24,723 nt of DNA from a virus (IMGVR_UViG_3300010354_000612:1-24723); one strand, 5' to 3'; positions 3,000 through 22,588 are shown, counted from the stretch's first letter. Notes: generated by a model from the sequence alone, not told the origin. Made by a program: numbers and translations.

Positions 3000-3533
3000 A
3001 GTTTGATTTTTTCCTAAATGTTCTTTAAACGAAATAGAAGACTCCCCTTCGGAGGGGGTAATTGTTATCGTTTTTTGCTCGGATAACTCCGAAAAAGCAG
3101 TAAGTCCCTTTACGGCCGGAATTGAAACTAAACCAAGATGACGTAGGGAGAGTTTCCCAGGAGTAGGATTTGTCTCAGCTTCGGGGAGGTAGAAGGAGCT
3201 ACTAACCTTTTTGAACACCCCATCTTTGATGAGTTGTTCGGCCTTGGGGGTAAGTTCTACCTTACCCCAAAGCTCTTTGCCCTTTCTCCAGACCTTACGT
3301 ACCCACCCGAGAGCAGGAGTGTCGTCCTGCTGATCGTGGCCAATAATCAGAGGGGCTTCGTGGTGAATGGGGTCATAAGACCCCACCACCTGATCCAAAT
3401 CGCTTTCCGTAAATACGAGCTTCTGGCCCGTAGAGGAGATCTGAGGGCCCGCTCTGAACATCTCGATAAACACGACCTTTTTAGGTTGTGCTTCCGAGAG
3501 AGGTTCTTTACGATTGAGTACGTGTTCTTTCAT
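1602..3533 (-). CDS. Prohead protease (Mu gpI-like) fused to acidic scaffold
   Basis: This 643-residue protein joins a head-maturation protease and a scaffold. Residues about 18-147 match the Mu gpI pattern: a YDPIHHEAPLIIGH segment (candidate His66), then GWVRKVW, LWGKVEL, a VSSSFYLP segment (candidate nucleophile Ser111-113) and a RHLGLVSIPAVKGL end. Residues about 230-480 are extremely acidic, with repeats such as DDMGGDAPEE and DDMGGEAPEE, then Glu/Lys-rich sequence. Residues about 500-530 look like a coiled coil (ARVAELEEELARQKKL). The tail of the protein (about 540-643) is helical and could bind the coat protein. The ATG lies 3 nt after the sheath stop with no Shine-Dalgarno site, so translation is probably coupled. 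Residue 179 is an in-frame ATG with its own promoter-like motif (see nested scaffold entry). In Mu, the scaffold gpZ is likewise made from the 3' part of gene I. Confidence 0.88.
   Translation of the reverse strand: MKEHVLNRKEPLSEAQPKKVVFIEMFRAGPQISSTGQKLVFTESDLDQVVGSYDPIHHEAPLIIGHDQQDDTPALGWVRKVWRKGKELWGKVELTPKAEQLIKDGVFKKVSSSFYLPEAETNPTPGKLSLRHLGLVSIPAVKGLTAFSELSEQKTITITPSEGESSISFKEHLGKNQTMARKKTKPETPASVSSTVEHTEGGGMTVNINIGGGGDKAKANVYDDSGNQISETGAPAEYDMEYGMESDMEAEAPEMSMADDSSDDLGLEDGGDDMGGDAPEEGGDDAAAPADDAGDDMGGEAPEEPSGEGDEGPGMDTEDISGDMEGDDQKIAQLASEYEIEELIKALALKTDAASMMEGEGMSYGEMPEGLKKAIEAKKEGKDDEDKEEKEDSEDMGEAVKEGEKPSEAEHPTSEDVKGAEEPKGEQVYAEEETEEKKEEEEEVADNGEGCKDYEEDEDEKKNAEMMKKSDMSEETASEEATGTLDHSESAMGVQGQNDLQARVAELEEELARQKKLMREKEISDFCETLYGEGKLTQQIVAKTDLVRFMETLNNKNSVNFSETGKASQFDFFKGILGNLPSMVSFEEFATPASAPKSRKQPTPSADGYVYDPSTTDLHAQALEYAEEKGVEYTVALKAVLSN
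3024..3030 (-). promoter_or_regulatory. GTTTAAA promoter-like motif inside protease gene
   Basis: An exact GTTTAAA on the minus strand lies within the protease/scaffold coding sequence, 24 nt before the internal ATG at 2999. Position and orientation match the other copies upstream of real genes. It may drive a separate scaffold transcript that also covers the decoration and capsid genes. Being in coding sequence it could also be chance. Confidence 0.5.
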
Positions 3534-3536
3534 CTA

Positions 3537-6173
3537 TCAGAATACGTTGGTTGTGTTGAGAAGAGTGCTAAATCTCTCCTCATTTCTGGAGAAGGAATCG
3601 CTCAGTTGAGCTACCTGACCAGCGGGCGTTCTGACGATGGTCACAAGCAGACGCTCAAGAGTTGGGCTTGTAGCCACGTACACGTCGAGTCTTACAGTGC
3701 CGTTTTCGAGGTCCGTTGCGTTATTGTTTGCCGATGAACAAACAACCAGATACGCTTGCTCAGGCCTGGATCCGAATAGCGCTCCCTGACGGAAGAACTG
3801 ACCACAGATCTGAGAAGCAATGGACTTCACTCTGGCGTACACAGTTCCTGCGGAATCGATCTGCTCGAAGAGAACGTCGTCGAAGCTGCGTCCCATAACG
3901 TCAATAAGGACATTAAGGATGGCACGTGTGTTTACAAACTTAAACAGAGGGTTGGAGGAGAGAGTTCTCGCGCCCCATGCCACGATTCCTCTGTTAGGAA
4001 GCGAGCGGATAGGGTTCAGTCCCAGAGTATAAGTAACTTCTTGCTGCTGAGCTGAGATGTCGAACTTGAGTCCGATGGCTCCGCGCAGAGGATAACGAGC
4101 TCCTGCAGGAGGCTGCTGGAAGCCCTCGTTGATGTACCTGGAGCAGGCGATACCGGCAATAAAGCCCGAAGGAGCAACATAGCGGTCGTCCAGGTTCTTG
4201 ATGTATGGAGCGTAGTAAGCGGCGTGGCCGAAAGGAACACCGACAGTGCTCTTAATCAGATCCAGTTCGTCCTGAACACGCACCAGAGAGGTCTCGTCGG
4301 CGCCACAGTCGATGAGCGCGATGTGCTGGGTTCCTGTGATACCTTCCGTGACTCCGATCTTGCCTTCAGCAGCTCTGACGAGTGTCTGAGTGATCTTCAA
4401 GCGTTCCTGACGGGCTTCGGATTGGCTAGCAAAGTCACCGACTCCGGCCTCGTAGGCAAGCACGGTGTAGGCTTCGGGAGCGAAGAGGAAACCAGGGGCT
4501 AATGCTCTCGATTCCATTCCCTGCTCGATGGCGTAGACAAAGTCATTGGCCTTGGCGCTCGAGGTCAGCTTATACGACTCGTAGGAGGAGCTCTGCTCTA
4601 CGGAGGGGAGTTTAACAACGTTGGGGTCGATCGCTCCGCTTCTGTTCACTCCGGGATACACTGGTGAACTGATTCCGTTCTTCGAGGTGATTCTGATCTT
4701 CAGAACGTAATCGTGCGAGTAGAATCCGTTAGCGGCGGCTTTCTCCGCGGCTGTTGGGGTTCCTGTCAACTCAGTGAGCTCTGGACGGATGTAAGGAGCA
4801 CCGGCTTCGGAGATGAGTTCGCCATTAGTATCGAGACCGTTGTTTGGAACGTACTTGGTGGCGCTAATTCTTCCGCTTGTGGTATCGGAGTCTAGAGTTC
4901 CGGCTTCTACCGTGTAGTAGGAATCCAGATCTTTCTCGGCGAGAATCGCTTCGATCGCGGTCTTGAGCTTTGTGGTCAGTTCTGCAGGATCAGCACCGTC
5001 GATGATAATCGCCCTATTCTCCCCGGCAACATTCACGTAGAATACCTGAACCGAGTCGGGAAGGTATCCTGTGCGGGTTGTGGGATCGCCACTAGGTACA
5101 ATCGCTGCGCTGGAGCCGTTGACAAGCTTAGCAAAAGCTGTAGTGGCCAGATCGTATTGCCAATAGGCAGCGTCAGCATTGGCCCACTTGGAAGTGTTGG
5201 TGCTGGTGTCTACTGAGATGGCGATGTACTTATCGTCGGGGATGGCCGAAGCGGCAGTGTAGAATCCCTGGACAATGAGGAATTCTTTAATGATCTGAGA
5301 CTGCTGAGTGGCTACGTTGTAGCTCTTAGTGGCCGCAAAGGAACTGAGTTGGCCTCCGGAGATATGCAGAATTGCCTGCTTGTTAGTCTGGTCTCTGGAC
5401 ACACACCTGAAATTGATGTCCTTAATAGAGGAGTACAGAGTAACAACGCCGGCCTGAGCAAGCAGGTCGAGTTGCTGGGCATACTCACTATTGGAGAACT
5501 TATAGGCGTAAAGTTTCTGTACCTCAGGAAGGTCTCTGGAGTCCTTGGAGAAGATTCTGAACTTGCCTGCCAGAGCCTCAGCTGCGTCCTGCTCGATGCG
5601 ATAGAAGTCGGCGAAGTTATCGCCATTACCGGAGAGGTACGTGTAGATATCTCTGGCGTTATCGATCTGATCTAAGGCAGTAGTTGTGATTACACGAATC
5701 TCAACTCCGTCCGCATCGTCGATTCCGATGGGAGTACCAAAATACCGACCATTTACCTTGATCGCAAAGGCATTGTAGGTCGTTCCGGCGGTCGACGCAC
5801 CAATATTGATTACAGTCTCCGGTGTTGGTGTAACTCTGGTGAAGTAGAGAATACCATTAACGCCAACGTTATCGAAGAAGGCCTTTACGCTATCGTATGT
5901 AGCCAGGGCTCCTTTGTTACCGACAGGAGGCTTTCCTCCGATTCTGCTGAGAAAATCATCAACTGATCCGATCTGAGTCGGAACGTAGGGTTGAAGATCG
6001 GAATAGGCGCTAATAGCATCTTCCTTGTAGTAATCCTCAGTGGGGGTAGTACCGAAGATATATCCCACCGCGTGAGTTGCGATAGGTTGTGGAAGAGAGC
6101 CTGTCGAGGTTTGTGTTACGAAGACTCCCGGCCGATTCAATGTCGCAGCATTGATTCTGATTGGATTGGCCAT
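3537..6173 (-). CDS. Contractile tail sheath protein
   Basis: This 878-residue protein forms the outer contractile tube of the tail. The N-terminus (NRPGVFVTQTSTGSLPQP, residues about 13-30) is the typical PGVYVxE-type opening of sheath proteins. Residues about 70-120 carry the usual F...G......YDSVKAFFDNVG...LYFTRV pattern. The C-terminal region (about 750-870) has FVNTRAILNVLIDVMGRSFDDVLFE and then a Q...FFRQGALFG segment, which is the conserved helix-and-strand part that packs on the tube. It is longer than T4 gp18 (about 660 residues); the extra sequence is in the middle (about 130-560) and is probably an exposed insertion domain. The ATG has no Shine-Dalgarno site. A GTTTAAG motif lies 35 nt upstream. 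Protease/scaffold follows at 3 nt. Confidence 0.95.
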   Translation of the reverse strand: MANPIRINAATLNRPGVFVTQTSTGSLPQPIATHAVGYIFGTTPTEDYYKEDAISAYSDLQPYVPTQIGSVDDFLSRIGGKPPVGNKGALATYDSVKAFFDNVGVNGILYFTRVTPTPETVINIGASTAGTTYNAFAIKVNGRYFGTPIGIDDADGVEIRVITTTALDQIDNARDIYTYLSGNGDNFADFYRIEQDAAEALAGKFRIFSKDSRDLPEVQKLYAYKFSNSEYAQQLDLLAQAGVVTLYSSIKDINFRCVSRDQTNKQAILHISGGQLSSFAATKSYNVATQQSQIIKEFLIVQGFYTAASAIPDDKYIAISVDTSTNTSKWANADAAYWQYDLATTAFAKLVNGSSAAIVPSGDPTTRTGYLPDSVQVFYVNVAGENRAIIIDGADPAELTTKLKTAIEAILAEKDLDSYYTVEAGTLDSDTTSGRISATKYVPNNGLDTNGELISEAGAPYIRPELTELTGTPTAAEKAAANGFYSHDYVLKIRITSKNGISSPVYPGVNRSGAIDPNVVKLPSVEQSSSYESYKLTSSAKANDFVYAIEQGMESRALAPGFLFAPEAYTVLAYEAGVGDFASQSEARQERLKITQTLVRAAEGKIGVTEGITGTQHIALIDCGADETSLVRVQDELDLIKSTVGVPFGHAAYYAPYIKNLDDRYVAPSGFIAGIACSRYINEGFQQPPAGARYPLRGAIGLKFDISAQQQEVTYTLGLNPIRSLPNRGIVAWGARTLSSNPLFKFVNTRAILNVLIDVMGRSFDDVLFEQIDSAGTVYARVKSIASQICGQFFRQGALFGSRPEQAYLVVCSSANNNATDLENGTVRLDVYVATSPTLERLLVTIVRTPAGQVAQLSDSFSRNEERFSTLLNTTNVF

Positions 6174-6208
6174 AAATTTTTGAAGACACCATATCTTTCA
6201 ATATAGCC

Positions 6209-6215
6209 CTTAAAC
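6209..6215 (-). promoter_or_regulatory. GTTTAAG promoter-like motif before sheath gene
   Basis: GTTTAAG on the minus strand, a one-base variant of the GTTTAAA motif, lies in the 63-nt gap before the sheath gene, 35 nt upstream of its ATG. It is followed by TATATTGAA, similar to TAT..AGAA-type sequence after other copies. It could give the sheath and head genes extra transcription over the small genes upstream. A second GTTTAAG inside the sheath gene near 3947 has no start nearby, so this variant alone is weak evidence. Confidence 0.45.
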
Positions 6216-6236
6216 AAACGGTGGGTTTTAACTTGT

Positions 6237-6479
6237 TTAGTCGGTTTCGTCCATCTTGTAGAGCTGGAATAATTCATTCATCAGCCAGTCCGGGCAGGAT
6301 ACCGCTCCGCACCTCCTAAACTCTAAAATTCTCATCGACTTCCTTAGAATCTTATTAAAATCCGGCGTATCTACATATCGCGAATTTACGCTTACAAACC
6401 CCTTGAGATCCGACACATCCCTCCTAAGGCAGATGGAGCATAGTATGAGGATGAGTTTTAGTCTTTCCGAATCTGTCAT
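6237..6479 (-). CDS. Small protein of unknown function in tail operon
   Basis: This 80-residue protein begins MTDSERLKLILIL and is predicted to be mainly helical. It has three cysteines (SICLRR, RRCGAVSC) but no clear zinc-site spacing. It is not recognised. Its ATG overlaps the stop of the preceding gene (TGATG), so it is translationally coupled and cotranscribed with the two genes upstream. Lying between a chaperone-like gene and the sheath gene, it probably helps tail assembly or is a minor tail part, but the sequence itself shows no function. Confidence 0.7.
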   Translation of the reverse strand: MTDSERLKLILILCSICLRRDVSDLKGFVSVNSRYVDTPDFNKILRKSMRILEFRRCGAVSCPDWLMNELFQLYKMDETD

Positions 6480-6907
6480 CAGGGATTGTTATTGATGGCC
6501 TCTAGAGCCTGCTGGTGTATCTGTACCATGACCACAAACTTGCTCATGGGGACCTCTTCCATGTCGGATAGTCCGCTAAAGGATCCGTTCTGTATCCCGA
6601 AGCATCTCCTAAGCCACTCGTGCTTAGTCATGTAATTGCATAGTATATTCTCTTTTACGATCTCGAAGACTTTAGCGATGTCACGATAAGTAAGGTTTCT
6701 AAGATCGAACTTTCTCACACACAGTCTAGATAGAATACTGATAATCCCATCTACATCGACCTCTTTTGGCTGATCATTATCTCCCTTCATGATGAAGTCC
6801 AGGAATTCCAGATCGGCGCCCTTTATATCTCTGAAGTGTAACTCCCGTAATTTAGAATCGATAACCGTGATGGTATAATCGCTATTCCGTTTCACGGATA
6901 GAGTCAT
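6479..6907 (-). CDS. Small protein, possible second tail assembly chaperone
   Basis: This 142-residue protein (MTLSVKRNSDYTITV...) has an N-terminal beta segment with LRELHFRDIKGADLEFLDFI, followed by helices and a C-terminal helix (MSKFVVMVQIHQQALEAI). The 'FRxIKGxDLEFLD' style resembles small proteins seen beside tail genes in contractile-tailed phages, some acting as tail assembly chaperones. Its ATG overlaps the upstream stop (TAATG), so it is coupled to that gene. I looked for a programmed frameshift joining the two, as in lambda G-GT, and found none convincing. Function is inferred mostly from position. Confidence 0.7.
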   Translation of the reverse strand: MTLSVKRNSDYTITVIDSKLRELHFRDIKGADLEFLDFIMKGDNDQPKEVDVDGIISILSRLCVRKFDLRNLTYRDIAKVFEIVKENILCNYMTKHEWLRRCFGIQNGSFSGLSDMEEVPMSKFVVMVQIHQQALEAINNNP

Positions 6908-7281
6908 TACTTCCTACTTTCCTCTACATCGTCGATTTCTTCCATCCCCAGCAGCTCGTTGATTGCACCACCGAGCAACTTAAGCTGCTTTGCTGTTAGC
7001 CTCTTAGCATCCTTCAGGGAGAGTTTGCGCTTACCCTCGTCCGGTGCGTGGAGAATGCAGATCGTCTGCAGTGTTGCCTCTACTTCCCCGATGTTCTTAT
7101 TCTCGGAAATTTTCGAGATCTCGATCAGATCATTAGCTGAGGGCTCTTTAAGAGTGAGGAATTTACCAGGAGACACCTCAACGGAGATCACCTCGGGATC
7201 CCCGAAGTCAAAGAGATCGTCATCCGCTTCCACAATGCTCGCTGAAGAGGACGATTCCCTTGTCATTTTACTTACTGCCAT
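6907..7281 (-). CDS. Tail assembly chaperone-like protein (Mu gp41/P2 E type, tentative)
   Basis: Read from the ATG at 7281 this is 124 residues. The first 30 are Ser/Asp-rich and likely disordered. Residues about 32-110 read VEVSPGKFLTLKEPSANDL, then a helix, then LSLKDAKRLTAKQLKLLGGAINELLG. This resembles tail assembly chaperones, in which a short beta motif and 'L(R/K)EPT..DL' lead into helices ending with a two-step 'L..d...l....i..ll' pattern. These bind the tape measure protein during tail building and are usually absent from the virion. A GTG at 7305 in the same frame is possible, but it lies only 2 nt after a GTTTAAA motif, so the ATG 26 nt downstream fits the other genes better. It heads the minus-strand operon toward the sheath. 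Confidence 0.7.
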   Translation of the reverse strand: MAVSKMTRESSSSASIVEADDDLFDFGDPEVISVEVSPGKFLTLKEPSANDLIEISKISENKNIGEVEATLQTICILHAPDEGKRKLSLKDAKRLTAKQLKLLGGAINELLGMEEIDDVEESRK

Positions 7282-7307
7282 GGGAGGGATTGTTATGTGT
7301 CCCACTC

Positions 7308-7314
7308 TTTAAAC
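7308..7314 (-). promoter_or_regulatory. GTTTAAA motif, leftward half of divergent promoter pair
   Basis: An exact GTTTAAA on the minus strand ends 26 nt before the ATG at 7281. With the plus-strand copy at 7321-7327 it forms an inverted repeat (TTTAAAC, 6-nt spacer CCCTTT, GTTTAAA) in the only gap between two divergent operons. Likely a promoter for the leftward tail/head operon. Confidence 0.65.
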
Positions 7315-7320
7315 CCCTTT

Positions 7321-7327
7321 GTTTAAA
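7321..7327 (+). promoter_or_regulatory. GTTTAAA motif, rightward half of divergent promoter pair
   Basis: An exact GTTTAAA on the plus strand ends 25 nt before the ATG at 7353. It is followed by ATTATCTATAGAA and then the ribosome site. Likely a promoter for the rightward small-gene/dCMP deaminase cassette. Confidence 0.65.
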
Positions 7328-7352
7328 ATTATCTATAGAAGGAGAGAGGTCC

Positions 7353-7724
7353 ATGGCTGTTAACCGAAATCCTCACGAGGAGTGGGAGGAGCTCAGATCC
7401 AGCTCTGACTACAGGACTACGGACACCCAGATCACCTCTCTGGTCCGACAGCAACTATCCCAGTCGGAGTATCTTAGAACATCCAACAGAGTCAATCCCG
7501 GACCTCTACGTAATTCTCGCGCTGCGTCAGCGGATTCCCAGCCCCAGATCCCGCACGCGGTGGGATCAGAGGATATGTGGGGGTGGCAGCAATGGACAGA
7601 TGTTTCCGTAGCGGGATTGGCCGGCATCCCAGAGGCCCAGAATTTGCTCGAGGAGAAAAAGGATTCGGAGGTGCCCGGTAAGAATTATGAGCCCTACGGG
7701 GAGGTGGGAGGCGCTTCCGTTTAA
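7353..7724 (+). CDS. Unknown protein, first gene of the rightward cassette
   Basis: This 123-residue protein (MAVNRNPHEEWEEL...) is not recognised. The first 75 residues are polar and probably disordered; the C-terminal part contains a Trp-rich stretch (MWGWQQWTDVSVAGLAGIPEA) followed by an acidic, Gly/Pro-rich tail. The ATG at 7353 is chosen over an upstream ATG at 7260 because a strong AAGGAGAGAGG site lies just before it, a GTTTAAA motif lies 25 nt upstream, and the earlier start would overlap the divergent gene and promoter region. The lack of a folded core in half the protein suggests a small virion or assembly factor, but this is a guess. Confidence 0.78.
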   Translation: MAVNRNPHEEWEELRSSSDYRTTDTQITSLVRQQLSQSEYLRTSNRVNPGPLRNSRAASADSQPQIPHAVGSEDMWGWQQWTDVSVAGLAGIPEAQNLLEEKKDSEVPGKNYEPYGEVGGASV

Positions 7725-7745
7725 GGTACTGCTGAAGGCAAAGCC

Positions 7746-7943
7746 ATGGATAACCTCCCTAATCACGTAAGTAGGTCCGAGCACAGCAGTTGGAAGAAGT
7801 GGGCGGAAAAGCATTCCTCCAAACCTTCTCCGTCTAAGCTGGCCACGGGTCTAACCGAGTCGTATTGGGAGCAGCTCCCCACCCCGATGGATAAGAGCCC
7901 CTATCAGTCATGTAGCTCCTGCCGTAGAAATAGAATCAGATGA
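7746..7943 (+). CDS. Small unknown protein with C-terminal CxxC
   Basis: This 65-residue protein (MDNLPNHVSRSEHSSWKK...) is polar, with Ser, Lys and Trp scattered through it, and ends in SCSSCRRNRIR: a CxxC pair followed by a basic tail. Two cysteines alone do not make a zinc site, although a dimer could. A GAAGG site lies about 9 nt before the ATG. The stop overlaps the next start (ATGA), so it is part of the same operon. Function unknown. Confidence 0.6.
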   Translation: MDNLPNHVSRSEHSSWKKWAEKHSSKPSPSKLATGLTESYWEQLPTPMDKSPYQSCSSCRRNRIR

Positions 7944-8161
7944 GTAACACTACGAGACGTAGATTATCCTCTCAGGAGACAGAGGAGATCCTGGAGGAGG
8001 AGCTGGTGGTTGCGCACGAGCCGGAACCAGAACCGGAATTAGATCCTACGCCCACCGGCCTGATCTTCCTCGGAGAGGAGGACAAAAGGCTTCTTAGAAA
8101 GGTCAACAATCACATCGTGAACAAATTGGGACTTGGAGGGACACGGTCTTTTAAAGTGTGA
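7940..8161 (+). CDS. Small acidic unknown protein
   Basis: This 73-residue protein (MSNTTRRRLSSQETEEILEEE...) has a helical acidic start, a Pro-Glu repeat linker (EPEPEPELDPTP, residues about 28-39) and a short helical end (GEEDKRLLRKVNNHIVNKLGL). It is not recognised. The ATG overlaps the preceding stop as ATGA, so it is translationally coupled. A near-match to the GTTTAAA motif lies in its last codons and may serve the next gene. Confidence 0.65.
   Translation: MSNTTRRRLSSQETEEILEEELVVAHEPEPEPELDPTPTGLIFLGEEDKRLLRKVNNHIVNKLGLGGTRSFKV
8149..8155 (+). promoter_or_regulatory. TTTTAAA promoter-like variant before dCMP deaminase
   Basis: TTTTAAA, one base from the GTTTAAA motif, lies 34 nt before the ATG at 8190 and is followed by GTGTGATAGAATAAA, resembling the sequence after the 7321 and 14562 copies. 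It overlaps the 3' end of the upstream coding sequence. Weak candidate on its own. Confidence 0.3.
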
Positions 8162-8189
8162 TAGAATAAAGACAGATACAGACTCTTTT

Positions 8190-8600
8190 ATGAAACCTAG
8201 GCTAATAGAGGCGTACATGGATATCGCGGAGAGATTCGCTCAGGTTTCAGAGTGTCAGAGACTTAAGGTGGGCGCTATAATCGTAAAAAATGGTTCTATT
8301 TTAGCTCATGGCTGGAACGGAACTCCTAGTGGGTTCAGGACCAATGTATGCGAGCTCGAAGACGGAACGACCTCGCCATTTGTTCTTCACGCCGAGCAAA
8401 ACGTCCTTGTGAAGATGGCCAAGTCCACGGAATCCGTGGACGGAGCTGAGATCTTCTGCACTCACTCTCCGTGTCCCGAGTGTTCAAAATTATTGGCTCA
8501 AAGCGGGATTAAAAAAGTGTATTACAAGCATAGATACCGTATTACAGAGGGATTAGATGTTCTTCAGCAGCTTGGGGTAGATGTGGAGAGAGTAGCATGA
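8190..8600 (+). CDS. dCMP deaminase (ComEB/CDD family)
   Basis: This 136-residue enzyme probably deaminates dCMP to dUMP, feeding dTMP synthesis for phage DNA replication in the cytoplasm. The start MKPRLIEAYMDIAERFAQVS is the usual helix 1; KVGAIIVKNGSILAHGWNGTPSG follows, with the NGTPSG loop typical of dCMP deaminases that bind the nucleotide. The zinc site is complete: HAEQN (His ligand plus catalytic Glu) and PCPEC (two Cys ligands), followed by KKVYY. It is shorter than T4 dCMP deaminase (193 residues) and close to the compact bacterial type. The ATG at 8190 is chosen over one at 8133 because it matches the family's N-terminus. It is the only recognisable metabolic gene in the window. 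The next gene overlaps its stop by ATGA. Confidence 0.92.
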   Translation: MKPRLIEAYMDIAERFAQVSECQRLKVGAIIVKNGSILAHGWNGTPSGFRTNVCELEDGTTSPFVLHAEQNVLVKMAKSTESVDGAEIFCTHSPCPECSKLLAQSGIKKVYYKHRYRITEGLDVLQQLGVDVERVA

Positions 8601-8959
8601 CTCTCAACTCCGACTCCGAGAAAAAAGCTCTTAAGGAGTCACTTAAGAACACTGTAGATCTACAGGAGACTCTAGGGTGCTTAGAAAAAGTCCTAGCTGA
8701 TAGGACTCCTTTTGCTTTGTATGTAGCGACGGCAGACAGATCCGACTGCATGTGGATATTCGATCCCCAGACAGTGTATCAGATGATAGGGGGAAAAGGA
8801 AAATATATTCAGATATTCGATACTCTGTTCCCCACGGAAGAGGATAAGTCGGTAGGTGTTGTGTTCTTTATCCTTAAGAAAGTCGGTCCTATCTACTCAA
8901 TCAGGGTGGACATCGAGCTTATAGACTCTATAATAGAAGAATTATACGATGAGATCTAG
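8597..8959 (+). CDS. Unknown protein after dCMP deaminase
   Basis: This 120-residue protein (MTLNSDSEKKALKESL...) has an N-terminal helix (about 7-33), then alternating strands and helices (FALYVATADRSDCMWIF, VGVVFFILKKVGPIYSIRVDIEL) and a C-terminal acidic helix. It looks like a small globular alpha/beta domain but is not recognised. It is coupled to the deaminase by an ATGA overlap and is the last gene of the rightward cassette. Its last 18 nt overlap the end of the convergent gene at 8942, leaving no room for a separate terminator. Confidence 0.72.
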   Translation: MTLNSDSEKKALKESLKNTVDLQETLGCLEKVLADRTPFALYVATADRSDCMWIFDPQTVYQMIGGKGKYIQIFDTLFPTEEDKSVGVVFFILKKVGPIYSIRVDIELIDSIIEELYDEI

Positions 8960-9829
8960 GGATTTTAGCGCGGCTATAATCTCATTGACTTTGGATTTTA
9001 GCTCGAGATTCTGATTACGTCTGTACCTGGTGTTGGGGGCGACAACTTTATTCGTCGGGATCACGGTCATGGAGGTACCTGGCGTCGCCGAATCAAACCC
9101 TGTCACTGTAAACTCCACCTCTTCGGGTATTCCAGGAGAAGGAGGCGATGTCATGGCCACAAACGTATCTCCTACGGAGAACTGAGTATCAAAAGCGGTA
9201 CCAGTACCCGTGACATTAGCGTTATTGATCGCTATTGTACCGGAGTAGTAGAATGAGTTGAGGGCGGTGGGTATAGCTAGTATCTCCGGTGGATCCACCG
9301 AAGGTGTCTCTAGAGCTTTGATTCTCTGCTCTAAATTTGCTACAGTTACTACCGCGGAGGTAACTTTCTCCTCAAGAGATCTCTGAGTTAGAGAGAGCGT
9401 CTGCAGTTGCTGCTGTCCCTCACTTAGATTTTTCTGGAAATTCTGCTCTACTGTACTGATATCGTCCTCTACGAGCTGAAGAGCGGTTTCGAGATTCGAT
9501 ATAGAGACTGACGTGGCCTCCGATAAAGCAGCCTGGGCCGAAGCTATGGCCGTAGAGAAGATCTTCAGATCGCGAATCTTAGCGTAGGTCCTATCAGCAA
9601 ACCTTACATTGACGATCCCGAGCTCCGTGGTTGGGTCTATAACCTCGGCTAAGCTTACACCTAGTTTCAGGCCACTCTTGGTTCCGGTGCCATCCTCGAC
9701 AAACAAAGTCCCTTCGGATGTCAATCCGTCCTGAGCAAGTACCTCCCCTGTCGTGGAAAGCTCCTGTCTCGCGATGTTCAGCAGGCCCCCCGCGTAGTCC
9801 TCTATGAATCTGCTACGTAAATCAGCCAT
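8942..9829 (-). CDS. Coiled-coil and beta-domain protein, probable virion part
   Basis: This 295-residue protein starts MADLRSRFIEDYAGGLLNIARQEL. Residues about 35-90 form a small beta region (GTLFVEDGTGTKSG). Residues about 95-174 look like a long coiled coil (ISNLETALQLVEDDIS, then LEQRIKALE). Residues about 193-260 carry YYSGTIAINNANVTGTGTAF, a beta motif common in phage fibre and baseplate proteins ('G.v.v.....V.GtGT.F...l..GD.i'). The C-terminal 25 residues are again helical. This layout fits a trimeric connector or fibre-like virion protein. No Shine-Dalgarno site is strong. It is the last gene of the three-gene leftward operon, 15 nt after the LRR gene, and ends convergently with the gene at 8597. 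Confidence 0.75.
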   Translation of the reverse strand: MADLRSRFIEDYAGGLLNIARQELSTTGEVLAQDGLTSEGTLFVEDGTGTKSGLKLGVSLAEVIDPTTELGIVNVRFADRTYAKIRDLKIFSTAIASAQAALSEATSVSISNLETALQLVEDDISTVEQNFQKNLSEGQQQLQTLSLTQRSLEEKVTSAVVTVANLEQRIKALETPSVDPPEILAIPTALNSFYYSGTIAINNANVTGTGTAFDTQFSVGDTFVAMTSPPSPGIPEEVEFTVTGFDSATPGTSMTVIPTNKVVAPNTRYRRNQNLELKSKVNEIIAALKSLDLIV

Positions 9830-9844
9830 TTACTTTTCCGCTTA

Positions 9845-10663: not shown

Positions 10664-13600
10664 TTTAGTCTGCCTCCTGACAGGGTTTTTGGACAGAAAT
10701 CTAAGTGATATTCACCGTTATATGGAGGAGAGAATCTCTTGCACTTCATCACATTCATACAGATCTGATAGTAGAATGGAGAATCGAACGTGGCGCATGT
10801 AAATTCGCTATTTTTCTCTAAGTTCGCCTTAATAAACTCCACCACACCGAATTCCGTGTTTCCCAGCTCACTAAGCTCCGATCCCCCGTACTCTCGAGTG
10901 AATGGTTCAGAGAACAGGTTCTCCAGCACTGGCTCCCCCTTCCTCCCAATAGAAGTTCCGGGTGGAAGAAGATTGGTGAACGCCGGTGGGTCCTTAAAAG
11001 AAGATCCAGGTATCATCATGGAGCTGGGAACGTACTCGCTAAATGTTCCCAGAGGCCTGTCTACACTGACCCTAGATGGTGATGACCCCGGGATCTCCTG
11101 GTAGGTTTCCGGGAAGAGCGACTTGTTAAACCCCGTGACGCACCTCTCCTGCGACTCAGCGTACAGAGCCTCGCACTCGGAGCCCCCGAACCTCTGGCAG
11201 GATCGGACGGGATCGAAGACCTCGACTGCAGTTTTGCCGGATACGTAACTAGCACCTAGGACGTCCGTATTGATTGTGGGATCTCCATCGAGCTTTTTAT
11301 AGATCTCTTTTACCACAGAAGGTTTTTGAGCTGGACGCTGGGAACTTACATCCTGCTCGTATTTTGTTGCTGGGGAGAACTTTTTCTGTAAAGCACGTAG
11401 GCGCTCTGGCTCTCTTACCTCATCGGAGGTAACAATTCCATTTGCCAACTGATTGGCTTCGGAGAACTTGATAAATCTGTTGATGAAGTTGATCGGCAGT
11501 TCGTCTACTATACCCAGCTCCATAACTTGGGATGAGTACTGAGAGATCTGCCTCGCCTGCTCAGGAGTGACAGAGTTTACCACGGGGACCCTGTTAGGCA
11601 CTCTGGAGTTTCCAATTCCGGGCGACTCCACGATAGAGGCTGTGGACGCTATCGTTGTAAGTGACGGAATACTCTCCCCGGAGGAGATGGAAGAGATTAT
11701 CTGGGGCATTGTCTCGTAGGATTTGTTCTGAGACAGAACCAGGGGCTCTAGAAGGTTGGAGATGCCGAATGACGACTCAAAGTTATAGTTGAGCTGGGCG
11801 TTAAATATTGTTTTGATAATCGATATGTACTTTATCAGCTCTTCGAGATTGACCACTAATTCTGGAAGCGCATAAAACTCATAGGATGTATCTACTTTAA
11901 AATTGTCCATCTGATACGAGTTTTTGTAGTTCCCGAGTTTGACACCTAGTCCGGCTAGCGTGGCGTACCTCAGGAAGGCTGTGAAGGACCCACCCGAGAA
12001 CCCGTCGAGCACGTGCCCTAGCGTGGTGTTGGAGGAGGGGCCATTGAGTACGGAGAATAGTTCTTTAGGAGTGAGACCTTTAGCCCTATCGTAGAGACCC
12101 TCGAGTACCTTTGATGATTCAATCTGGCCAAGATTGTCGCCAATGACCTTCGTCCACTGCTTTAGAGCGATTGGGGTTATTGCGTTGGCCTGGGGGTATA
12201 GGACGGTGGGCGATGATAGGGCATCGGGTCTATAGACCCCGGTGATCATCTGCTCGATGAGAGGCTGTAGGAATTGAATCTCATTTCTATCCTTTATGAT
12301 TGTATTCTCGCCATTTTGGTAAAGATACGAGATCGATTCGAGTAGGCTTAGGTTATTCTGACCAAGAATCCTCTCAAACTTGACAAGTTGCGAAGGATCT
12401 ACGGCGTAAGTCAGACCGATGAGAAGTCCTATGAGCTTGGGATACCTCTCAAGATTAACGTAAGTTAACCTTGACTTATCCTTCTGAGAGAGATCAAGGA
12501 TGTTCAGAAGAGAGTCCAGCTCGTTGTTTCTATATAGGAAAGATAAGTACGTATCCACGGCTCCCTGGCCGCCAAATTCGTACACGAGCTGTGCGAGTTC
12601 GTAGGCTTTAAAAAACGACTTTAGATCCGACGAGTCTGTCAGCGGAGCGAAACTCTCGACCAACTGCGAGAACGATTGCACTTCTAGCAGTTTATTGATC
12701 TCCGAGTCCCTAAACCCAAGGGAACTTAGAAGCCCAATCAGGTTCTTATCATTTGCCTCGTAAGCCTTGAAGAAGATGTTGGGAAGAAATTCCGATGTTG
12801 ATATTCCTATTCTCTTCAGAGTCTGAACAACTTCCTCCAGTTTGTTATTTATGCGCTCAATCCAGGGCCCAAAAAACTCTAAAGACCTTCCGGGGAGCAC
12901 AGGACGAATCACCGCCGATGAGAACCTGGAGTAGTTATCCAGTAGGTACTTAATAGAGCCACTTAGCCCTGCTCCAGGGCTCGGGCCTTTCTCTCGACCT
13001 GTGAAGTAAGATGTTGGTGGGAATACCCGCTGAAACTCGCGCATCTGCGTACTTACTGAGCCCAGACCTTCGTGGCCTGGAGCACGACCATTTCCGTCTA
13101 GAGTGTTCAGGACCGCTTTGACTGTGTCACCCACCAGCAAACATCTCTTATATATACTCTCAAGGGCATACAGTAGAAGATCTACTCTTGCCGGCTCGCG
13201 ATAGGAAACGGGAGTCTCCAAAGACACGAACCTATCCTCCAGTCCGGAACTGAACTGCGAGTATACGGGATTGTATACCACTCTACTATCCGATACGGGA
13301 GTGTTTTCGGGAAGTGTTTGAGCTTGAGCAAAGGATTTTAACAACCCAAACCCATTCAGGAATTTTAGTCCAGCTATCTTATTGGGTACAGTTCCGGACT
13401 TGAATATGACGTTGAACTTTCCGAATATGGAGTCTCCGTCGGTGAAATCGAATATCTCAGGAGTGTTTCTGCCCAGTCCCGCTGCTAAGATGTACTCGGA
13501 GAATCGTACTATGTACTCGACACCACCTACGGGAGAGCCTTCATAGGATCCGAAGGCGTCGGTGATCTCTTTGAGCTGCCTTACAGACTCCACCACCTGC

Positions 13601-14526
13601 TTTCCTTCTCCGCCAAAGGTCGAGAAGAGCAGGTTCTCGTCTACGTTTTCTATGTCAGAAAACTCCGACACGTAGGAGTCGGACACAATCTCGTTGGAGT
13701 CGAAGCCAAACTCCGTGAATTTTCCAAAAGCCGATCTTATGTTATCTTGGAATACTTTTCTAAATGATTTTGTTTGGTCTAGCCTTCTGGAGACGTACTT
13801 AACCCACTCCGACTCTTCAAAATACGAGCGGGTCGGGTTTGTAACGTTTGGGCGTAATTTGTACAGTTCGCCGTTAAATATAACTAAGTAGTCGTAGGAG
13901 AGCGGTATGCTGTACTTGGAGAGCCCTAGACTACTAGCAAATCTATTATACCCGAGAGGAGAGTACAGTTCCTCATCCTTAGCGGACGAGAACGCTTCCC
14001 AGTAGCGGGCTTTCGGGAAAAGAGTATACACTCTGTTAGTAGTCGAGTCTAGCTCCTTAGGCAGGACCGAGTAAAGAGCTTCGGAATACTGATATTCCGG
14101 CTGCCCTTGTAGTATATCTACCGCCTCGGAGGGGGCGTAGAAGCCCAAGTTATCGACGTTCTCATAAAATAGTTCTAAGTACGTATTCAGTATACGTGTG
14201 AGATTCGCGTCGTAGTTCGATTTTTTCTTAATAAACTCGATAACCCCCTCTACTACAAACTGCAGTAGACTCTTCATAGCCTCAGTATTAAAATCCAGAT
14301 CAAGCACTACTACGAGCAAGATCTCCTTGAAAGATAAAATGGAGATCTCGTCCTTGGCCTCCACTCTGTCAATAACCCTACGCAAGAGTTCGAGCCCCGA
14401 ATCTAGGAATTTCCTACGTGAGAGATCCGTGGTTAAACTGCCAAACTCCTTCTCGTAAGCAACAAGGCTTTCCGATACCAAGTTCTGGGCATTTATACGG
14501 ATCTCCTCGAAAAGCGCTGAAGTCAT
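10660..14526 (-). CDS. Very large unknown protein (1288 residues), probable virion protein
   Basis: This is the largest gene of the window and is not recognised. The first 130 residues are helical; the body is a long alternation of helical blocks and Ser/Pro/Tyr-rich segments. No transmembrane helix, nucleotide-binding loop or peptidase motif was found. The Cys content is notable: almost all cysteines lie in the last 200 residues, in two groups (SCQRFGGSECEALYAESQERC, spanning about 1105-1130, and CATFDSPFYYQICMNVMKC...FCPK near the end), suggesting disulphides or metal sites. Size and place, at the head of a leftward operon with an LRR protein and a coiled-coil protein among structural genes, suggest a large tail, baseplate or ejected protein. 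It does not look like a tape measure protein: no long coiled coil or Gly/Ala-rich repeats. GTTTAAA lies 23 nt before the ATG; no Shine-Dalgarno site. Confidence 0.8.
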   Translation of the reverse strand: MTSALFEEIRINAQNLVSESLVAYEKEFGSLTTDLSRRKFLDSGLELLRRVIDRVEAKDEISILSFKEILLVVVLDLDFNTEAMKSLLQFVVEGVIEFIKKKSNYDANLTRILNTYLELFYENVDNLGFYAPSEAVDILQGQPEYQYSEALYSVLPKELDSTTNRVYTLFPKARYWEAFSSAKDEELYSPLGYNRFASSLGLSKYSIPLSYDYLVIFNGELYKLRPNVTNPTRSYFEESEWVKYVSRRLDQTKSFRKVFQDNIRSAFGKFTEFGFDSNEIVSDSYVSEFSDIENVDENLLFSTFGGEGKQVVESVRQLKEITDAFGSYEGSPVGGVEYIVRFSEYILAAGLGRNTPEIFDFTDGDSIFGKFNVIFKSGTVPNKIAGLKFLNGFGLLKSFAQAQTLPENTPVSDSRVVYNPVYSQFSSGLEDRFVSLETPVSYREPARVDLLLYALESIYKRCLLVGDTVKAVLNTLDGNGRAPGHEGLGSVSTQMREFQRVFPPTSYFTGREKGPSPGAGLSGSIKYLLDNYSRFSSAVIRPVLPGRSLEFFGPWIERINNKLEEVVQTLKRIGISTSEFLPNIFFKAYEANDKNLIGLLSSLGFRDSEINKLLEVQSFSQLVESFAPLTDSSDLKSFFKAYELAQLVYEFGGQGAVDTYLSFLYRNNELDSLLNILDLSQKDKSRLTYVNLERYPKLIGLLIGLTYAVDPSQLVKFERILGQNNLSLLESISYLYQNGENTIIKDRNEIQFLQPLIEQMITGVYRPDALSSPTVLYPQANAITPIALKQWTKVIGDNLGQIESSKVLEGLYDRAKGLTPKELFSVLNGPSSNTTLGHVLDGFSGGSFTAFLRYATLAGLGVKLGNYKNSYQMDNFKVDTSYEFYALPELVVNLEELIKYISIIKTIFNAQLNYNFESSFGISNLLEPLVLSQNKSYETMPQIISSISSGESIPSLTTIASTASIVESPGIGNSRVPNRVPVVNSVTPEQARQISQYSSQVMELGIVDELPINFINRFIKFSEANQLANGIVTSDEVREPERLRALQKKFSPATKYEQDVSSQRPAQKPSVVKEIYKKLDGDPTINTDVLGASYVSGKTAVEVFDPVRSCQRFGGSECEALYAESQERCVTGFNKSLFPETYQEIPGSSPSRVSVDRPLGTFSEYVPSSMMIPGSSFKDPPAFTNLLPPGTSIGRKGEPVLENLFSEPFTREYGGSELSELGNTEFGVVEFIKANLEKNSEFTCATFDSPFYYQICMNVMKCKRFSPPYNGEYHLDFCPKTLSGGRLK

Positions 14527-14549
14527 GGACGCGATAAATCTGATTAAAC

Positions 14550-14556
14550 TTTAAAC
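14550..14556 (-). promoter_or_regulatory. GTTTAAA motif, leftward half of second divergent pair
   Basis: An exact GTTTAAA on the minus strand ends 23 nt before the ATG at 14526. Together with 14562-14568 it makes a perfect inverted repeat (CTTTAAAC, spacer TTTGG, GTTTAAAG). Likely promoter of the 1288-residue/LRR operon. Confidence 0.65.
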
Positions 14557-14561
14557 TTTGG

Positions 14562-14568
14562 GTTTAAA
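14562..14568 (+). promoter_or_regulatory. GTTTAAA motif, rightward half of second divergent pair
   Basis: An exact GTTTAAA on the plus strand ends 23 nt before the ATG at 14592 and is followed by GCTATGAGAA. Likely promoter of the operon that leads into the portal gene. Confidence 0.65.
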
Positions 14569-14591
14569 GCTATGAGAACTTACCACGAGCT

Positions 14592-15062
14592 ATGCAATCC
14601 AAAATCTCGGTGATTCTGATCAAGAGACGAGCAGTTGATAATTCCTCAGATCTGAACAAGATGGCGGTGCATCTGGAGCAGATGCTAACAGAAAAAGATG
14701 GAGTGGAGCTAAAAGTCCGCCAGGGACTTACCGAGGCCGCCATCAAATCAGCTTCCTTTGTCGTATTCTGCGGGTACGATAACGCGGCTCTCTCGGAATT
14801 CTTCAAGGCTCTCTCCGTGATCGAGGGAATGGAAGGAGATTCCGGCCCAGTTCTGTTCCTCTACGAGGAGGCCGGTCAGTCCATCTGGGAGCGCATGAAC
14901 TACATTCTGAGAGAAGGCATGGATCTGCGTCGCATGGATCCAAAGATCTTTAACAAAATCGTTGACACCTGGACATATAAGGATATAATTAGTACTATAG
15001 ACGTAGCATTAAGAAAGCTTGGAACTGGATCGCCTACTAGCGCTGGCACCTCAGCTGACTGA
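14592..15062 (+). CDS. Rossmann-like protein, possibly a diverged LOG/SLOG domain
   Basis: This 156-residue protein has an alternating strand/helix pattern: KISVILIKRRAV, then a helix to EQMLTEKDG, VELKVRQGLTEAAIKSASFVVFCG, a helix, GPVLFLYEEAGQSIWERM, and a C-terminal helix. The second half resembles LOG-type proteins, where a 'kPv.ll...gyw..l......gfi...d...i.d....i...l' segment follows the nucleotide loop. However the family's PGGxGTxxE loop is replaced by CGYDNAALSEF (residues about 61-71), so catalysis is doubtful. The last 14 residues (GTGSPTSAGTSAD) are low-complexity and overlap the next gene. It heads the rightward operon containing portal and tube genes. The ATG has no Shine-Dalgarno site. 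The fold link is an inference from pattern. Confidence 0.72.
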   Translation: MQSKISVILIKRRAVDNSSDLNKMAVHLEQMLTEKDGVELKVRQGLTEAAIKSASFVVFCGYDNAALSEFFKALSVIEGMEGDSGPVLFLYEEAGQSIWERMNYILREGMDLRRMDPKIFNKIVDTWTYKDIISTIDVALRKLGTGSPTSAGTSAD

Positions 15063-15987
15063 GGATCAATTTCAGAGACTTCTCGATCATGATCGCTGGA
15101 GGCTCGAGGCGACATTTGCCCATGAGGTAAGACTTGAGGAGCTAAGGCTGTCCTCAAAGCGATCGGGGAGCGCCGGGAGTGGTGGAAGCCCATCTCAGAC
15201 AGGTACGAGCGACGAGGACAGGAAGTTCAACGAACTGACCTCCTACGGGGCGTGCTCGGATAAGCACATCGGTCTTATCTCTAAGACCAAGGTCTGGGAG
15301 GGGGCGAATGAACGCTCGACAAAGCTCTTCGAGCAGTGGTACGCCCATCTCCAGGAGAATAACATCATCCCACTCAAGGATCTCAAAGAGGGCAGGATTA
15401 AGACTCTGCTTCTGGCATTTCTGTGGGCTAGCGGATGCTCCCACCGTGTGGCGAAGTGGCCGGAGGCCTCAGATTCTCATTTGGTGGAGACTCTGCGTAA
15501 GGATCTAAGGGAGAGATTCTCGAAGTTCTCAAAGCACAGCATCATCGCCGCTTACGAGTCCCTCAAGACCTTCTGGAAGGAAATCAACGATTACGAGTCG
15601 TGTCCTTTTAACTCCAGTTTGATCGCCGATATTCTTGACGAGTCGTACCTCTACGTGTCTCAAAAGGCCGATGAGGAGTCCAAAGTTGATATAAAGAATT
15701 CCCCGCTCTTCTCCGAGTTTGAAAAGAACTTCCCCCACGTTCCGCTTAGCACACTCGAGAAATACTACTTAAAGAACAGATTTAACTTCGTAGCGGCGGG
15801 GGTGGGGGCTCTGAGAAAGGTATTCACCACTTCGTGTCCCTCAGAGCTTGAACACAAATTCACGCCAAGTGAATGGCCTAAGAAGTGGCATACCTATCTC
15901 AGTTCCTACGAAACAAAATGGCAGAAACAACTCGCGACGATTCAGCACGAGACTCGGGAAGCACAGGAGAAGTGGAAAGAGGGGTAA
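15019..15987 (+). CDS. Unknown protein with TTG start and no internal methionine
   Basis: This 322-residue protein (TTG-GAA-CTG-GAT...) is not recognised. A helical first 48 residues are followed by a Ser/Gly linker (SGSAGSGGSPSQTGTSD, about 50-66) and a mainly helical, Trp/Tyr-rich domain to the end. The frame is open only from 15013, after an in-frame TAA at 15010-15012, and contains no ATG at all, so translation must start at a rare codon (TTG at 15019) or enter from the upstream gene, which it overlaps by 44 nt, by a +1 shift. Its place just upstream of the portal gene is where terminase or head-assembly genes often lie, but no such motif is seen: there is no Walker motif and no clear DNA-binding helix-turn-helix. 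Confidence 0.75.
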   Translation: MELDRLLALAPQLTEDQFQRLLDHDRWRLEATFAHEVRLEELRLSSKRSGSAGSGGSPSQTGTSDEDRKFNELTSYGACSDKHIGLISKTKVWEGANERSTKLFEQWYAHLQENNIIPLKDLKEGRIKTLLLAFLWASGCSHRVAKWPEASDSHLVETLRKDLRERFSKFSKHSIIAAYESLKTFWKEINDYESCPFNSSLIADILDESYLYVSQKADEESKVDIKNSPLFSEFEKNFPHVPLSTLEKYYLKNRFNFVAAGVGALRKVFTTSCPSELEHKFTPSEWPKKWHTYLSSYETKWQKQLATIQHETREAQEKWKEG

Positions 15988-16172
15988 ACATCCTCACCAA
16001 CTCCCAGCCTGTCATAGTAGATGGCGCGGAGGAGGCCATAGAGAGATTTAACAATGGCGAGCTTAGCGCTCAGGAGCTTTACAACATCATCCTAGATGCC
16101 CCTGTGGTCTACGTTGATCGGTCCTCGGCTTCCGAGTTTAAAGAATCAAAAGACAACAACTCGACCGAGTGA
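15918..16172 (+). CDS. Small acidic unknown protein before portal
   Basis: From the ATG at 15918 this is an 84-residue protein (MAETTRDDSARDSG...). The first 30 residues are disordered and polar; the core (VNILTNSQPVIVDGAEEAIERFNNGELSAQELYNIILDAPVVYV) is a compact strand-helix-helix-strand unit; the tail is charged. An earlier ATG at 15885 is possible, but both starts lie inside the end of the upstream gene and lack a Shine-Dalgarno site. Its stop overlaps the portal GTG as GTGA. A GTTTAAA motif occurs within its last codons. Not recognised. Confidence 0.68.
   Translation: MAETTRDDSARDSGSTGEVERGVNILTNSQPVIVDGAEEAIERFNNGELSAQELYNIILDAPVVYVDRSSASEFKESKDNNSTE
16136..16142 (+). promoter_or_regulatory. 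GTTTAAA promoter-like motif before portal gene
   Basis: An exact plus-strand GTTTAAA lies inside the end of the small upstream gene. It ends 35 nt before the portal ATG at 16178 (26 nt before the GTG at 16169), matching the spacing of the other copies. It could give the portal gene separate transcription. Confidence 0.5.
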
Positions 16173-18127
16173 GGGGTATGGCTGAGGATCGTCGAGCGGC
16201 GAAACACATTAAAACAGGGTACTACGATAGGTATTTCCGCCTAGGAGTAGCTCAGGGAGGCCTTGCGGGTTACAAGGCTGATCCTTACGCCTTCACTGCC
16301 ACCCCGTACCTCAACTCCGGCACCATCCTACCCCGCCGCGACGACATCCTCATCGAGGAGGGTGGCGGAGGCCCACGGGCGATCGAGAAGTACATGCGGC
16401 TGTTCAACGATAGCCACATTATCGCCGCTTGGGAGAAGATCACAGGGGAGATTGTTCAGCGCAAGTGGGAAGTCGATCCGGCTAGCACCTCTGACCGTGA
16501 CGAGGAGGTGGCGGAGTTTGTTCGCCAGGTTCTGAAGCGCATGGGCACCAACACCCGCCAGGCCTACGGCAAGGAGATGCTCGTAACCTCCAACTCCGCG
16601 TTCGATACTTTCATCCGTGGCATGTGCGAGTCGATGATACTCGGCATCGCGATCGGCGAGATCTGCTGGATGCGTCAAGGAAATTACATCGTCCCCTCCG
16701 AGGTTAAGATCCGCGATCCGCGCCGGTTCCAGTTTGTTCTCAACGAAGATGGAACGATTTCTCCACGCCTGATGACTGTGGATTCGCCCGTGGAGGGTAT
16801 TCCGCTACCTCTCAGGTCGATGGTGATCCATAGGCACTGGGCGTACAGCAACTTCATGGATCCCTACGGCACCGGCCTGGGACGCCAGCTCTACAGCCTT
16901 GTGGAGTTCAGACGTACACTGATGTCCTTCTGGCTCCAGTACGCTGACAAGCACACCACTCCCACCGCGGTTGGTAAGTTCTCGCTCGGCACCCCGGACG
17001 AGGAGGTCCAGTCCCTCTTCACGGCGCTTCAGCGCCTGGGCCAGGAGACCGCTATTGTTATCCCCGACGAGATGGACATCAGCTGGCTTGAGAGCCAGGG
17101 CCGAGCGGAAGTCTACGAGAAACTTATCGAGTATGTCGATCAGCAGATCAGTTTTGTTCTCAACGGCGAGAATACCGTGGGCCAGGAGACGGGGAATGTT
17201 GGTTCTTACGCCAGGGACCAAGTCTCCGACTCGGTTCGTATGCGTAAAGCTAAAGCGTTCTCTGAGGAGCTTGACGAAACGATTAACGCTACGCTTGTGC
17301 GCTGGATTGTTGAGCTTAACTATCCGGGCGCCGCTGTTCCTAGACTTCGTAGAAACTTTGATGATCTAGAGCAGCGAGAAGACCCCGTAAAGGTTGTTCA
17401 GATGCTCACTCAGCTGCAAGCGATCGGTTACGAGGTCAAGGACCTTGACTGGGTGAGGGATAAGCTCGAGATCCCGTCCCTGGGCAAAGTGGACATGTCA
17501 GCGATGATGGGCGGAGCCCCTGGCGCTCCTGGGGCGCCCGGAGCTGCGCCGATGTCCGAGCCTAAAACCCCAGAGCAGATGGCCGATGCCACTAACGGAT
17601 CTCAGGGTGCCTTCGGATCGGACCAATCCGATCTCCTCAAGCTCTTCGACTTTGCCGAGGGTGAGGGCGAATACGACGAGGTGGGAGATGAATCCGATAA
17701 GACCAAGAAGGATAAGATTGCTAAGATCATCGCGTCCAAGTTCGATGGCACACTCGACGACGTTGGATTCCAGCGTATCATCTCTGACACCGGGGACTCC
17801 GAGGCCTCCGCGTCTCGCGTTCGTGTGGACGAGTACACATCGCCAGGCGAACTCGCCCATGGCTGCCGTCGGCTTATCGAAGAAGTGAAGAAAGTTCCGT
17901 ACTTACGCCCTGAGCAGTCGATGGCGTTAAGCAACCTCGATATGGATCTGCATGTTTTCGAGAACGCTATTGTTGTGGAAGATATGACAACCTGCGATAC
18001 TACCAAGCTCCTGGAACTGTATCGCTCCATCTATCGCCTCAACCGCTCGGTGGCGCATAAGGAATGCGTGGTGCTAGATTGTAGAGCGGCTGGTTATTGG
18101 AAGTACTTTGCTCCGTACTTTATGTAA
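16169..18127 (+). CDS. Portal protein (Mu gp29-like, DUF935)
   Basis: This 652-residue protein should form the ring at the head vertex through which DNA enters and leaves. It matches the Mu gp29/DUF935 pattern: HIIAAWEKITGEIVQRKWEVDPAS (residues about 83-106), GMCESMILGIAIGEICW (151-167), RDPRRFQF (182-189), a MDPYGTGLGR segment and the helical stem region (ENTVGQETGNVGSYARDQVS). A Gly-Ala-Pro repeat linker (about 446-460) leads to an acidic segment and an extra C-terminal domain (about 540-652) absent from the 512-residue Mu protein; it has several cysteines (CDTTK, KECVVLDC). The GTG at 16169 overlaps the preceding stop as GTGA; an ATG at 16178, preceded by GAGGGG only 1 nt away, is the alternative start. 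Composition is GC-richer than that of the 1288-residue gene. Confidence 0.92.
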   Translation: MRGMAEDRRAAKHIKTGYYDRYFRLGVAQGGLAGYKADPYAFTATPYLNSGTILPRRDDILIEEGGGGPRAIEKYMRLFNDSHIIAAWEKITGEIVQRKWEVDPASTSDRDEEVAEFVRQVLKRMGTNTRQAYGKEMLVTSNSAFDTFIRGMCESMILGIAIGEICWMRQGNYIVPSEVKIRDPRRFQFVLNEDGTISPRLMTVDSPVEGIPLPLRSMVIHRHWAYSNFMDPYGTGLGRQLYSLVEFRRTLMSFWLQYADKHTTPTAVGKFSLGTPDEEVQSLFTALQRLGQETAIVIPDEMDISWLESQGRAEVYEKLIEYVDQQISFVLNGENTVGQETGNVGSYARDQVSDSVRMRKAKAFSEELDETINATLVRWIVELNYPGAAVPRLRRNFDDLEQREDPVKVVQMLTQLQAIGYEVKDLDWVRDKLEIPSLGKVDMSAMMGGAPGAPGAPGAAPMSEPKTPEQMADATNGSQGAFGSDQSDLLKLFDFAEGEGEYDEVGDESDKTKKDKIAKIIASKFDGTLDDVGFQRIISDTGDSEASASRVRVDEYTSPGELAHGCRRLIEEVKKVPYLRPEQSMALSNLDMDLHVFENAIVVEDMTTCDTTKLLELYRSIYRLNRSVAHKECVVLDCRAAGYWKYFAPYFM

Positions 18128-18135
18128 TTCGGCGA

Positions 18136-18184
18136 GATGGGCTTAGTTTAAATATCATCAGAACTAAGTGTAAGCTATCCCATC
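18136..18184 (+). promoter_or_regulatory. Inverted-repeat leader just before the tail tube start
   Basis: GATGGG (18136-18141) pairs with CCCATC (18179-18184), which abuts the tail tube ATG. Directly inside, CTTAGTT (18142-18148) pairs with AACTAAG (18162-18168) around a 13-nt loop, leaving a 10-nt bulge on the 3' side. The structure spans the GTTTAAA motif. If transcribed from upstream it could fold over the start region; if the promoter lies here, only part would be in the mRNA. No T-run follows, so it is not a terminator. Confidence 0.4.
18146..18152 (+). promoter_or_regulatory. GTTTAAA promoter-like motif before tail tube gene
   Basis: An exact plus-strand GTTTAAA in the 57-nt portal-tube gap ends 32 nt before the tube ATG and is followed by TATCATCAGAAC, similar to GCTATGAGAAC after the 14562 copy. 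Likely a dedicated promoter for the highly expressed tube gene and the genes after it. Confidence 0.62.
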
Positions 18185-22544: not shown

Positions 22545-22588
22545 GATGAGATATAGAAAAAATATAACTGGGGGAATGGTGAACCCAT

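Follow-up and report, generated by a model that had tools for sequence, protein, structure and literature searches.

Previous studies of T4-type late promoters have described a lone -10-like word without a -35 element that lies at virion genes and is read by the phage sigma factor gp55, the word being TATAAATA, or NATAAATA in S-PM2 (PMC2988020; PMC2984593). Here we examine a virus contig of 24.7 kb (IMGVR_UViG_3300010354_000612, positions 1-24723; hereafter the window, meaning the whole of this stretch), for which an original prediction, made from the DNA alone, had noted that every exact GTTTAAA sits just upstream of a start codon and had inferred from this a class of promoters specific to the phage, probably late, by analogy with that of T4 and its dedicated sigma factor. 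Taken together, the comparisons presented below suggest that the word is the eight-letter GTTTAAAG (GTTTAA[A/G]G), and that it is likely the late promoter core of S-TIM5-like cyanomyoviruses, a -10-like element without a -35 that would be read by a phage-encoded sigma. In the mechanism we propose, gp108 of S-TIM5 would direct host RNA polymerase to GTTTAAAG, and transcription would begin some 6-8 nt after it, giving short leaders ahead of virion and packaging genes, with early, replication and metabolic genes mostly using ordinary sigma70-type promoters; from the copy that lies within the protease gene, a nested scaffold and the capsid genes would be transcribed as a message of their own, and in one sub-clade the sigma and all its promoters would have switched jointly to GTTGAAAGC. 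In the open literature searched (titles, abstracts and terms, the original S-TIM5 paper lying outside that search) there was no earlier account of late promoters in S-TIM5-like phages, and a search for GTTTAAAG together with phage returned only an unrelated match.

The window represents part of the genome of an S-TIM5-like cyanomyovirus (Aurunvirus). Protein matches align the whole of it with 41.7-66 kb of S-TIM5 in identical order, and its capsid gene is the only one with near DNA matches in named phages, where Cyanophage S-TIM5 and the closely related S-TIM61 and S-TIM66 match it at ~80% identity. Because the window is collinear with S-TIM5, we ran the genome-wide test of the motif on the complete genome of the latter (172 kb, 212 coding genes), and for comparison among relatives we gathered 106 IMG/VR loci, initially by searching with the capsid protein and with the sigma, further loci being added afterwards. 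When every 8-mer in the interval 15-65 nt ahead of the annotated S-TIM5 starts was tallied without bias, GTTTAAAG ranked first, observed 25 times where the genome's own word frequencies predict 0.95 (p=7e-27); the core spans eight letters, as a G usually follows GTTTAAA. The genome holds 36 copies against a mean of 13.3 in shuffles, and 27 of the 36 precede an annotated start by no more than 90 nt, one more being the protease-internal site and the remainder background-like. GTTTAAAG was therefore not equally common away from starts in the complete genome and the idea survived, although the claim that every copy precedes a start, which holds in the window if one internal start is counted, fails genome-wide.

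The genes that bear the word are mostly those of the particle. By the S-TIM5 annotation 17 of the 26 are virion or packaging genes, compared with 47 of 212 overall (p=4e-7), and a simple pattern search for sigma70-type promoters (TTGACA-like, 15-19 nt spacer, TATAAT-like) found TTGACA-N17/18-TAtaAT-type promoters upstream of DNA polymerase, primase and thymidylate synthase, with no GTTTAAAG there. On this count, and on the promoters at these three genes, the word goes with virion genes and stands apart from early promoters. Enrichment and gene class thus support a phage-specific and probably late class of promoter, its full element being GTTTAA[A/G]G rather than GTTTAAA. It resembles the T4-type late promoters in being a lone -10-like word without a -35, in its distances to starts, in its virion genes and in its putative phage sigma reader, but differs in the word itself, since GTTTAAAG, and no ATAAATA word, tops the upstream 8-mers of S-TIM5. 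In the control S-PM2, a T4-like cyanophage whose late promoter is NATAAATA (PMC2984593), that word lies 19-37 nt ahead of ten starts in 45 kb and GTTTAAAG ahead of none.

We aligned the non-redundant sites, 130 of the GTTT form and 85 of a GTTG form found in one clade of relatives, and positions -40 to -1 were without signal in both; the element is therefore one without a -35. Both forms lie mostly 17-40 nt from the start codon, and the GTTG form is longer, reading GTTGAAAGC, with a second and weaker TAGAA four letters on (positions 14-18). The fixed gap to this TAGAA could suggest that GTTTAAAG is itself a -35 element, or half of a two-part promoter with the TAGA word as its downstream -10; however, a 17-nt spacer would put the transcript start ~28-30 nt further on, which for more than half of the sites means on the ATG or beyond it, the position expected for a -10 is empty, and TAGA, which is weak in the GTTT clade, is better placed as an initiator at the start of the transcript. 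We therefore rejected the -35 role, which we regard as very unlikely. Bacillus sigmaB promoters carry GTTTAA as their -35, and here the likeness is one of letters, since the spacing of sigmaB leads to no matching -10 and the words lie too near the starts to act as a -35. As a -10, GTTTAAAG would leave leaders of ~10-25 nt, with TAGA at the presumed site of transcription start.

In the window itself, the seven exact copies of GTTTAAA that had been located by eye are all present in position and strand, and their distances to in-orientation ATGs (24, 26, 25, 23, 23, 35 and 32 nt) were correct on recount. Dinucleotide-shuffled versions of the window hold 2.06 copies on average, with at least seven in 1 of 100 shuffles. 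The sites of the element, together with the two open reading frames (ORFs) concerned with the internal one, are as follows.

3023..3030, minus strand: GTTTAAAG inside the protease ORF, its GTTTAAA 24 nt upstream of an internal in-frame ATG at 2999; scaffold, gp152 and major capsid protein have their candidate promoter here
1602..2999, minus strand: nested in-frame ORF starting MARKKTK, a candidate scaffold whose expression the internal site would drive
1602..3533, minus strand: head maturation protease ORF that holds the internal site (PHROG 976, E=3.8e-68)
6208..6215, minus strand: GTTTAAGG variant, 35 nt ahead of the tail sheath ATG at 6173; the orthologous site of relatives is GTTTAAAG or GTTTAAGG, and GTTGAAAG in the other clade
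7307..7314, minus strand: GTTTAAAG ahead of the gp147 homologue (ATG 7281), back-to-back with the site at 7321..7328
7321..7328, plus strand: GTTTAAAA ahead of the gp146 homologue (ATG 7353)
14549..14556, minus strand: GTTTAAAG ahead of the gp140 homologue, a virion protein (ATG 14526)
14562..14569, plus strand: GTTTAAAG ahead of the gp139 homologue (ATG 14592)
16136..16143, plus strand: GTTTAAAG ahead of the portal gene (ATG 16178), overlapping the end of the preceding gene
18146..18153, plus strand: GTTTAAAT ahead of the gp135 homologue (ATG 18185)
22538..22545, plus strand: GTTTAAGG variant ahead of the gp131 homologue (ATG 22589); the S-TIM5 counterpart is GTTTAAAG

Three near-matches had also been put forward. 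Both GTTTAAGG copies (6215-6208(-) and 22538-22545(+)) are genuine members by position, and S-TIM5 has GTTTAAAG at the two orthologous places (tail sheath and gp131). TTTTAAA at 8149-8155 is probably no member and was rejected, lying as it does ahead of a dCMP deaminase gene whose orthologues have a sigma70-type promoter (TATAAT) there. The window's own dCMP deaminase promoter (8142-8190(+)) is sigma70-like, with TGATAGAAT where relatives have TATAAT, and the early-type class is thus also represented in the window. We further excluded GATTAAAG ahead of the gp142 homologue, as several relatives have coding sequence at that place or too short a distance to the ATG.

The copy at 3030-3024(-) has the ATG that had been assigned to it, at 2999 and 24 nt away, but this is an in-frame internal start within the 1602-3533(-) protease ORF and opens no separate ORF. 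In 41 distinct protease sequences of the GTTT clade we found 194 codon columns in which the amino acid is degenerate and never varies, and a single codon is used in nine of these; four of the nine are consecutive (TCG TTT AAA GAA), spelling GTTTAAAG in 41/41 sequences, and simulation gives P=0.00045 for a run of at least four among nine such columns. At the same place the GTTG clade has TCA TTT/TTC CAA/CAG GAA, its codons free, and the internal Met is conserved in both clades. Codons frozen in the one clade and free in the other therefore point to a signal that acted there at the DNA level and was lost with the switch of word. Judged from the sequence, the internal site would likely serve to transcribe the nested scaffold separately, followed by gp152 and by the major capsid gene, whose own start has no copy directly before it. 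Nested protease and scaffold genes are known from lambda (C/Nu3) and from herpesviruses (UL26/UL26.5, with UL26.5 expressed from its own internal promoter); the likeness lies in the in-frame internal start within a protease gene, the scaffold function and internal transcript being putative in our case. In some GTTG phages (L185 9136, L081 7436) GTTGAAAG is found elsewhere in the protease-gp152 region, either ahead of the protease or in the stretch separating it from gp152, and looks like a replacement for the lost internal promoter.

The internal copy also bears on whether GTTTAAAG might be an RNA element of the 5' leader, a signal for translation or decay and no promoter, as could be supposed from its constant place near a start codon in sense orientation. 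Against this, the internal copy is constrained as nucleotides within a coding region and disappears once the word switches, early genes with sigma70-type promoters do without the word, and the copies that stand back-to-back between divergent genes behave as promoters would, and we consider an RNA element highly improbable.

Support for a promoter with its own lineage-specific reader comes from the relatives. At gp154, tail sheath, gp147 and gp146 the upstream flanks diverge while the word stays, and in some relatives GTTGAAAG stands at exactly the orthologous positions. Of 98 relatives labelled for word type, 61 have GTTTAA[A/G] words and 37 have GTTGAAAG at every labelled gene, and none is mixed. 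On the capsid tree a single change suffices (branch support 100), where shuffled labels require ~27; with midpoint rooting the GTTG clade adjoins the GTTT members L115, L055 and L076, by which the GTTT state is probably ancestral. When upstream words were recounted with mechanical gene calls, independently of annotation, the top word was GTTGAAAG in GTTG contigs (49 vs 1.64 expected, log10 p -53) and GTTTAAAG in other GTTT contigs (33 vs 1.35 expected, log10 p -33). These phages have AT-rich intergenic DNA, and GC content is higher in the GTTG clade, which could be taken to mean that the words are TTTAAA strings thrown up by composition and that GTTG is their high-GC form. The enrichment over both word frequencies and shuffles in S-TIM5 and the lack of such copies near starts in S-PM2 argue against chance, and we rejected base composition as the cause of the GTTG form because one letter only was moved, and moved everywhere, all-or-none; the probability of this account is next to negligible. 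Among the related phages T7, T3, SP6 and K11, promoter word and RNA polymerase have likewise diverged together, mainly at a few positions. Their reader is a single-subunit phage polymerase, whereas here it would be a sigma working with the host polymerase.

The candidate reader, S-TIM5 gp108, belongs by its sequence to the sigma70 family. It matches Pfam Sigma70_r2 (PF04542) at 4.2e-05, just under the cut-off, with 1.5e-07 and 8e-09 for GTTG-type sigmas, and SigA structures across sigma2-sigma3 at 1.2e-05. A model of gp108 (pLDDT 65, modest confidence) shows the domain order of the sigma32, sigmaS and SigA structures, and we used it for this order only, drawing no residue contacts from it. The protein falls into PHROG 351 and S-PM2 gp55 into PHROG 234, and BLASTP and profile comparison between them were negative, so that membership of the gp55 family was rejected; the S-TIM5-type sigma is also larger than gp55, with sigma2 and sigma3-like parts. 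The analogy with T4 thus holds insofar as a phage sigma splits in step with the word, and not as regards the family of that sigma. A search for a gp45-type clamp (PF02916) gave no match, but gave none in any control genome either and so had no positive control.

We found the sigma on all checked long contigs that span the region. The GTTT-type profile recovered no GTTG-type sigma; the first came from a search of long GTTG contigs and more followed, giving one that shares a contig with a GTTG capsid gene and seven further contigs. Within 20 kb around GTTG-type sigmas there are 5-9 copies of GTTGAAAG, nearly all ahead of starts, and GTTTAAAG is almost absent. A tree of 35 GTTT-type and 7 GTTG-type sigmas needs one change, with the same split as the promoter word, and word and sigma specificity have thus diverged together. 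In the helix that aligns to sigma70 region 2.4, WVNRCLQFHMLNYLRD is near-invariant in the GTTT set and is replaced by WLNRSLTFQVLNYLRD in the GTTG set (LQFHMLNYLRD to LTFQVLNYLRD), with residue 77 fixed both ways, as His in GTTT-type and Gln in GTTG-type sigmas. Two single contigs may be added: L174 has a distant sigma (50% identity) with GTTTAAAG still there in very AT-rich DNA, and L036 has a GTTT-type sigma (61% identity) on a contig with neither GTTTAAAG nor GTTGAAAG in 7.6 kb. The gp107-gp108 thioredoxin-sigma pair (L011, S-TIM5 111421-111540(-)) has upstream of it a short inverted repeat and then TATAAT, and lacks GTTTAAAG, an arrangement that would be consistent with the sigma being expressed early.

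Several points weigh against our interpretation. The word also precedes some non-virion genes, and several virion genes, the major capsid gene among them, have none immediately upstream. The sigma model is of modest confidence, and capsid gene and sigma occur together on only one GTTG contig. Fixed differences of the kind seen at residue 77 occur in ~26 sigma columns, and the region 2.4 helix is therefore a candidate and no proof. Moreover, word and sigma each change once, which makes their co-divergence a single event that other phage-encoded readers would fit equally. GTTTAAAG could then be a late promoter element or activator site of another phage-encoded DNA-binding protein, with a host or phage sigma in a secondary role. 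The switch does reveal a lineage-specific reader, which need not be the sigma, and the element exceeds the usual -10 hexamer in length; yet the constant presence of the sigma in the region, the predicted -10-reading helix being among its changed parts, and a placement equal to that of the T4-type -10 element make such a protein unlikely. We favor the sigma as reader, and find it somewhat more plausible than the contrary that a single rewiring took this sigma, together with about thirty promoters in each genome, from GTTTAAAG to GTTGAAAGC and left two orthogonal systems, the change being determined by a few residues in the sigma 2.4 helix (~S-TIM5 75-78, especially His77 to Gln), in a form of late transcription that is independent of gp55 and drives the nested scaffold from an internal promoter.

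S-TIM5-like phages form a widespread group of relatives that falls outside the T4-like cyanophages, and with a defined word and a probable reader their late genes would become recognisable in metagenomic fragments. The all-or-none switch from GTTT to GTTG offers a natural experiment in how a sigma and dozens of promoters shift specificity jointly, and the two versions of word and sigma a ready-made orthogonal pair for testing. In this lineage of cyanophages GTTTAAAG is very probably the ‘on switch’ ahead of the genes that build the particle, having become GTTGAAAG in one branch in step with its probable reader.

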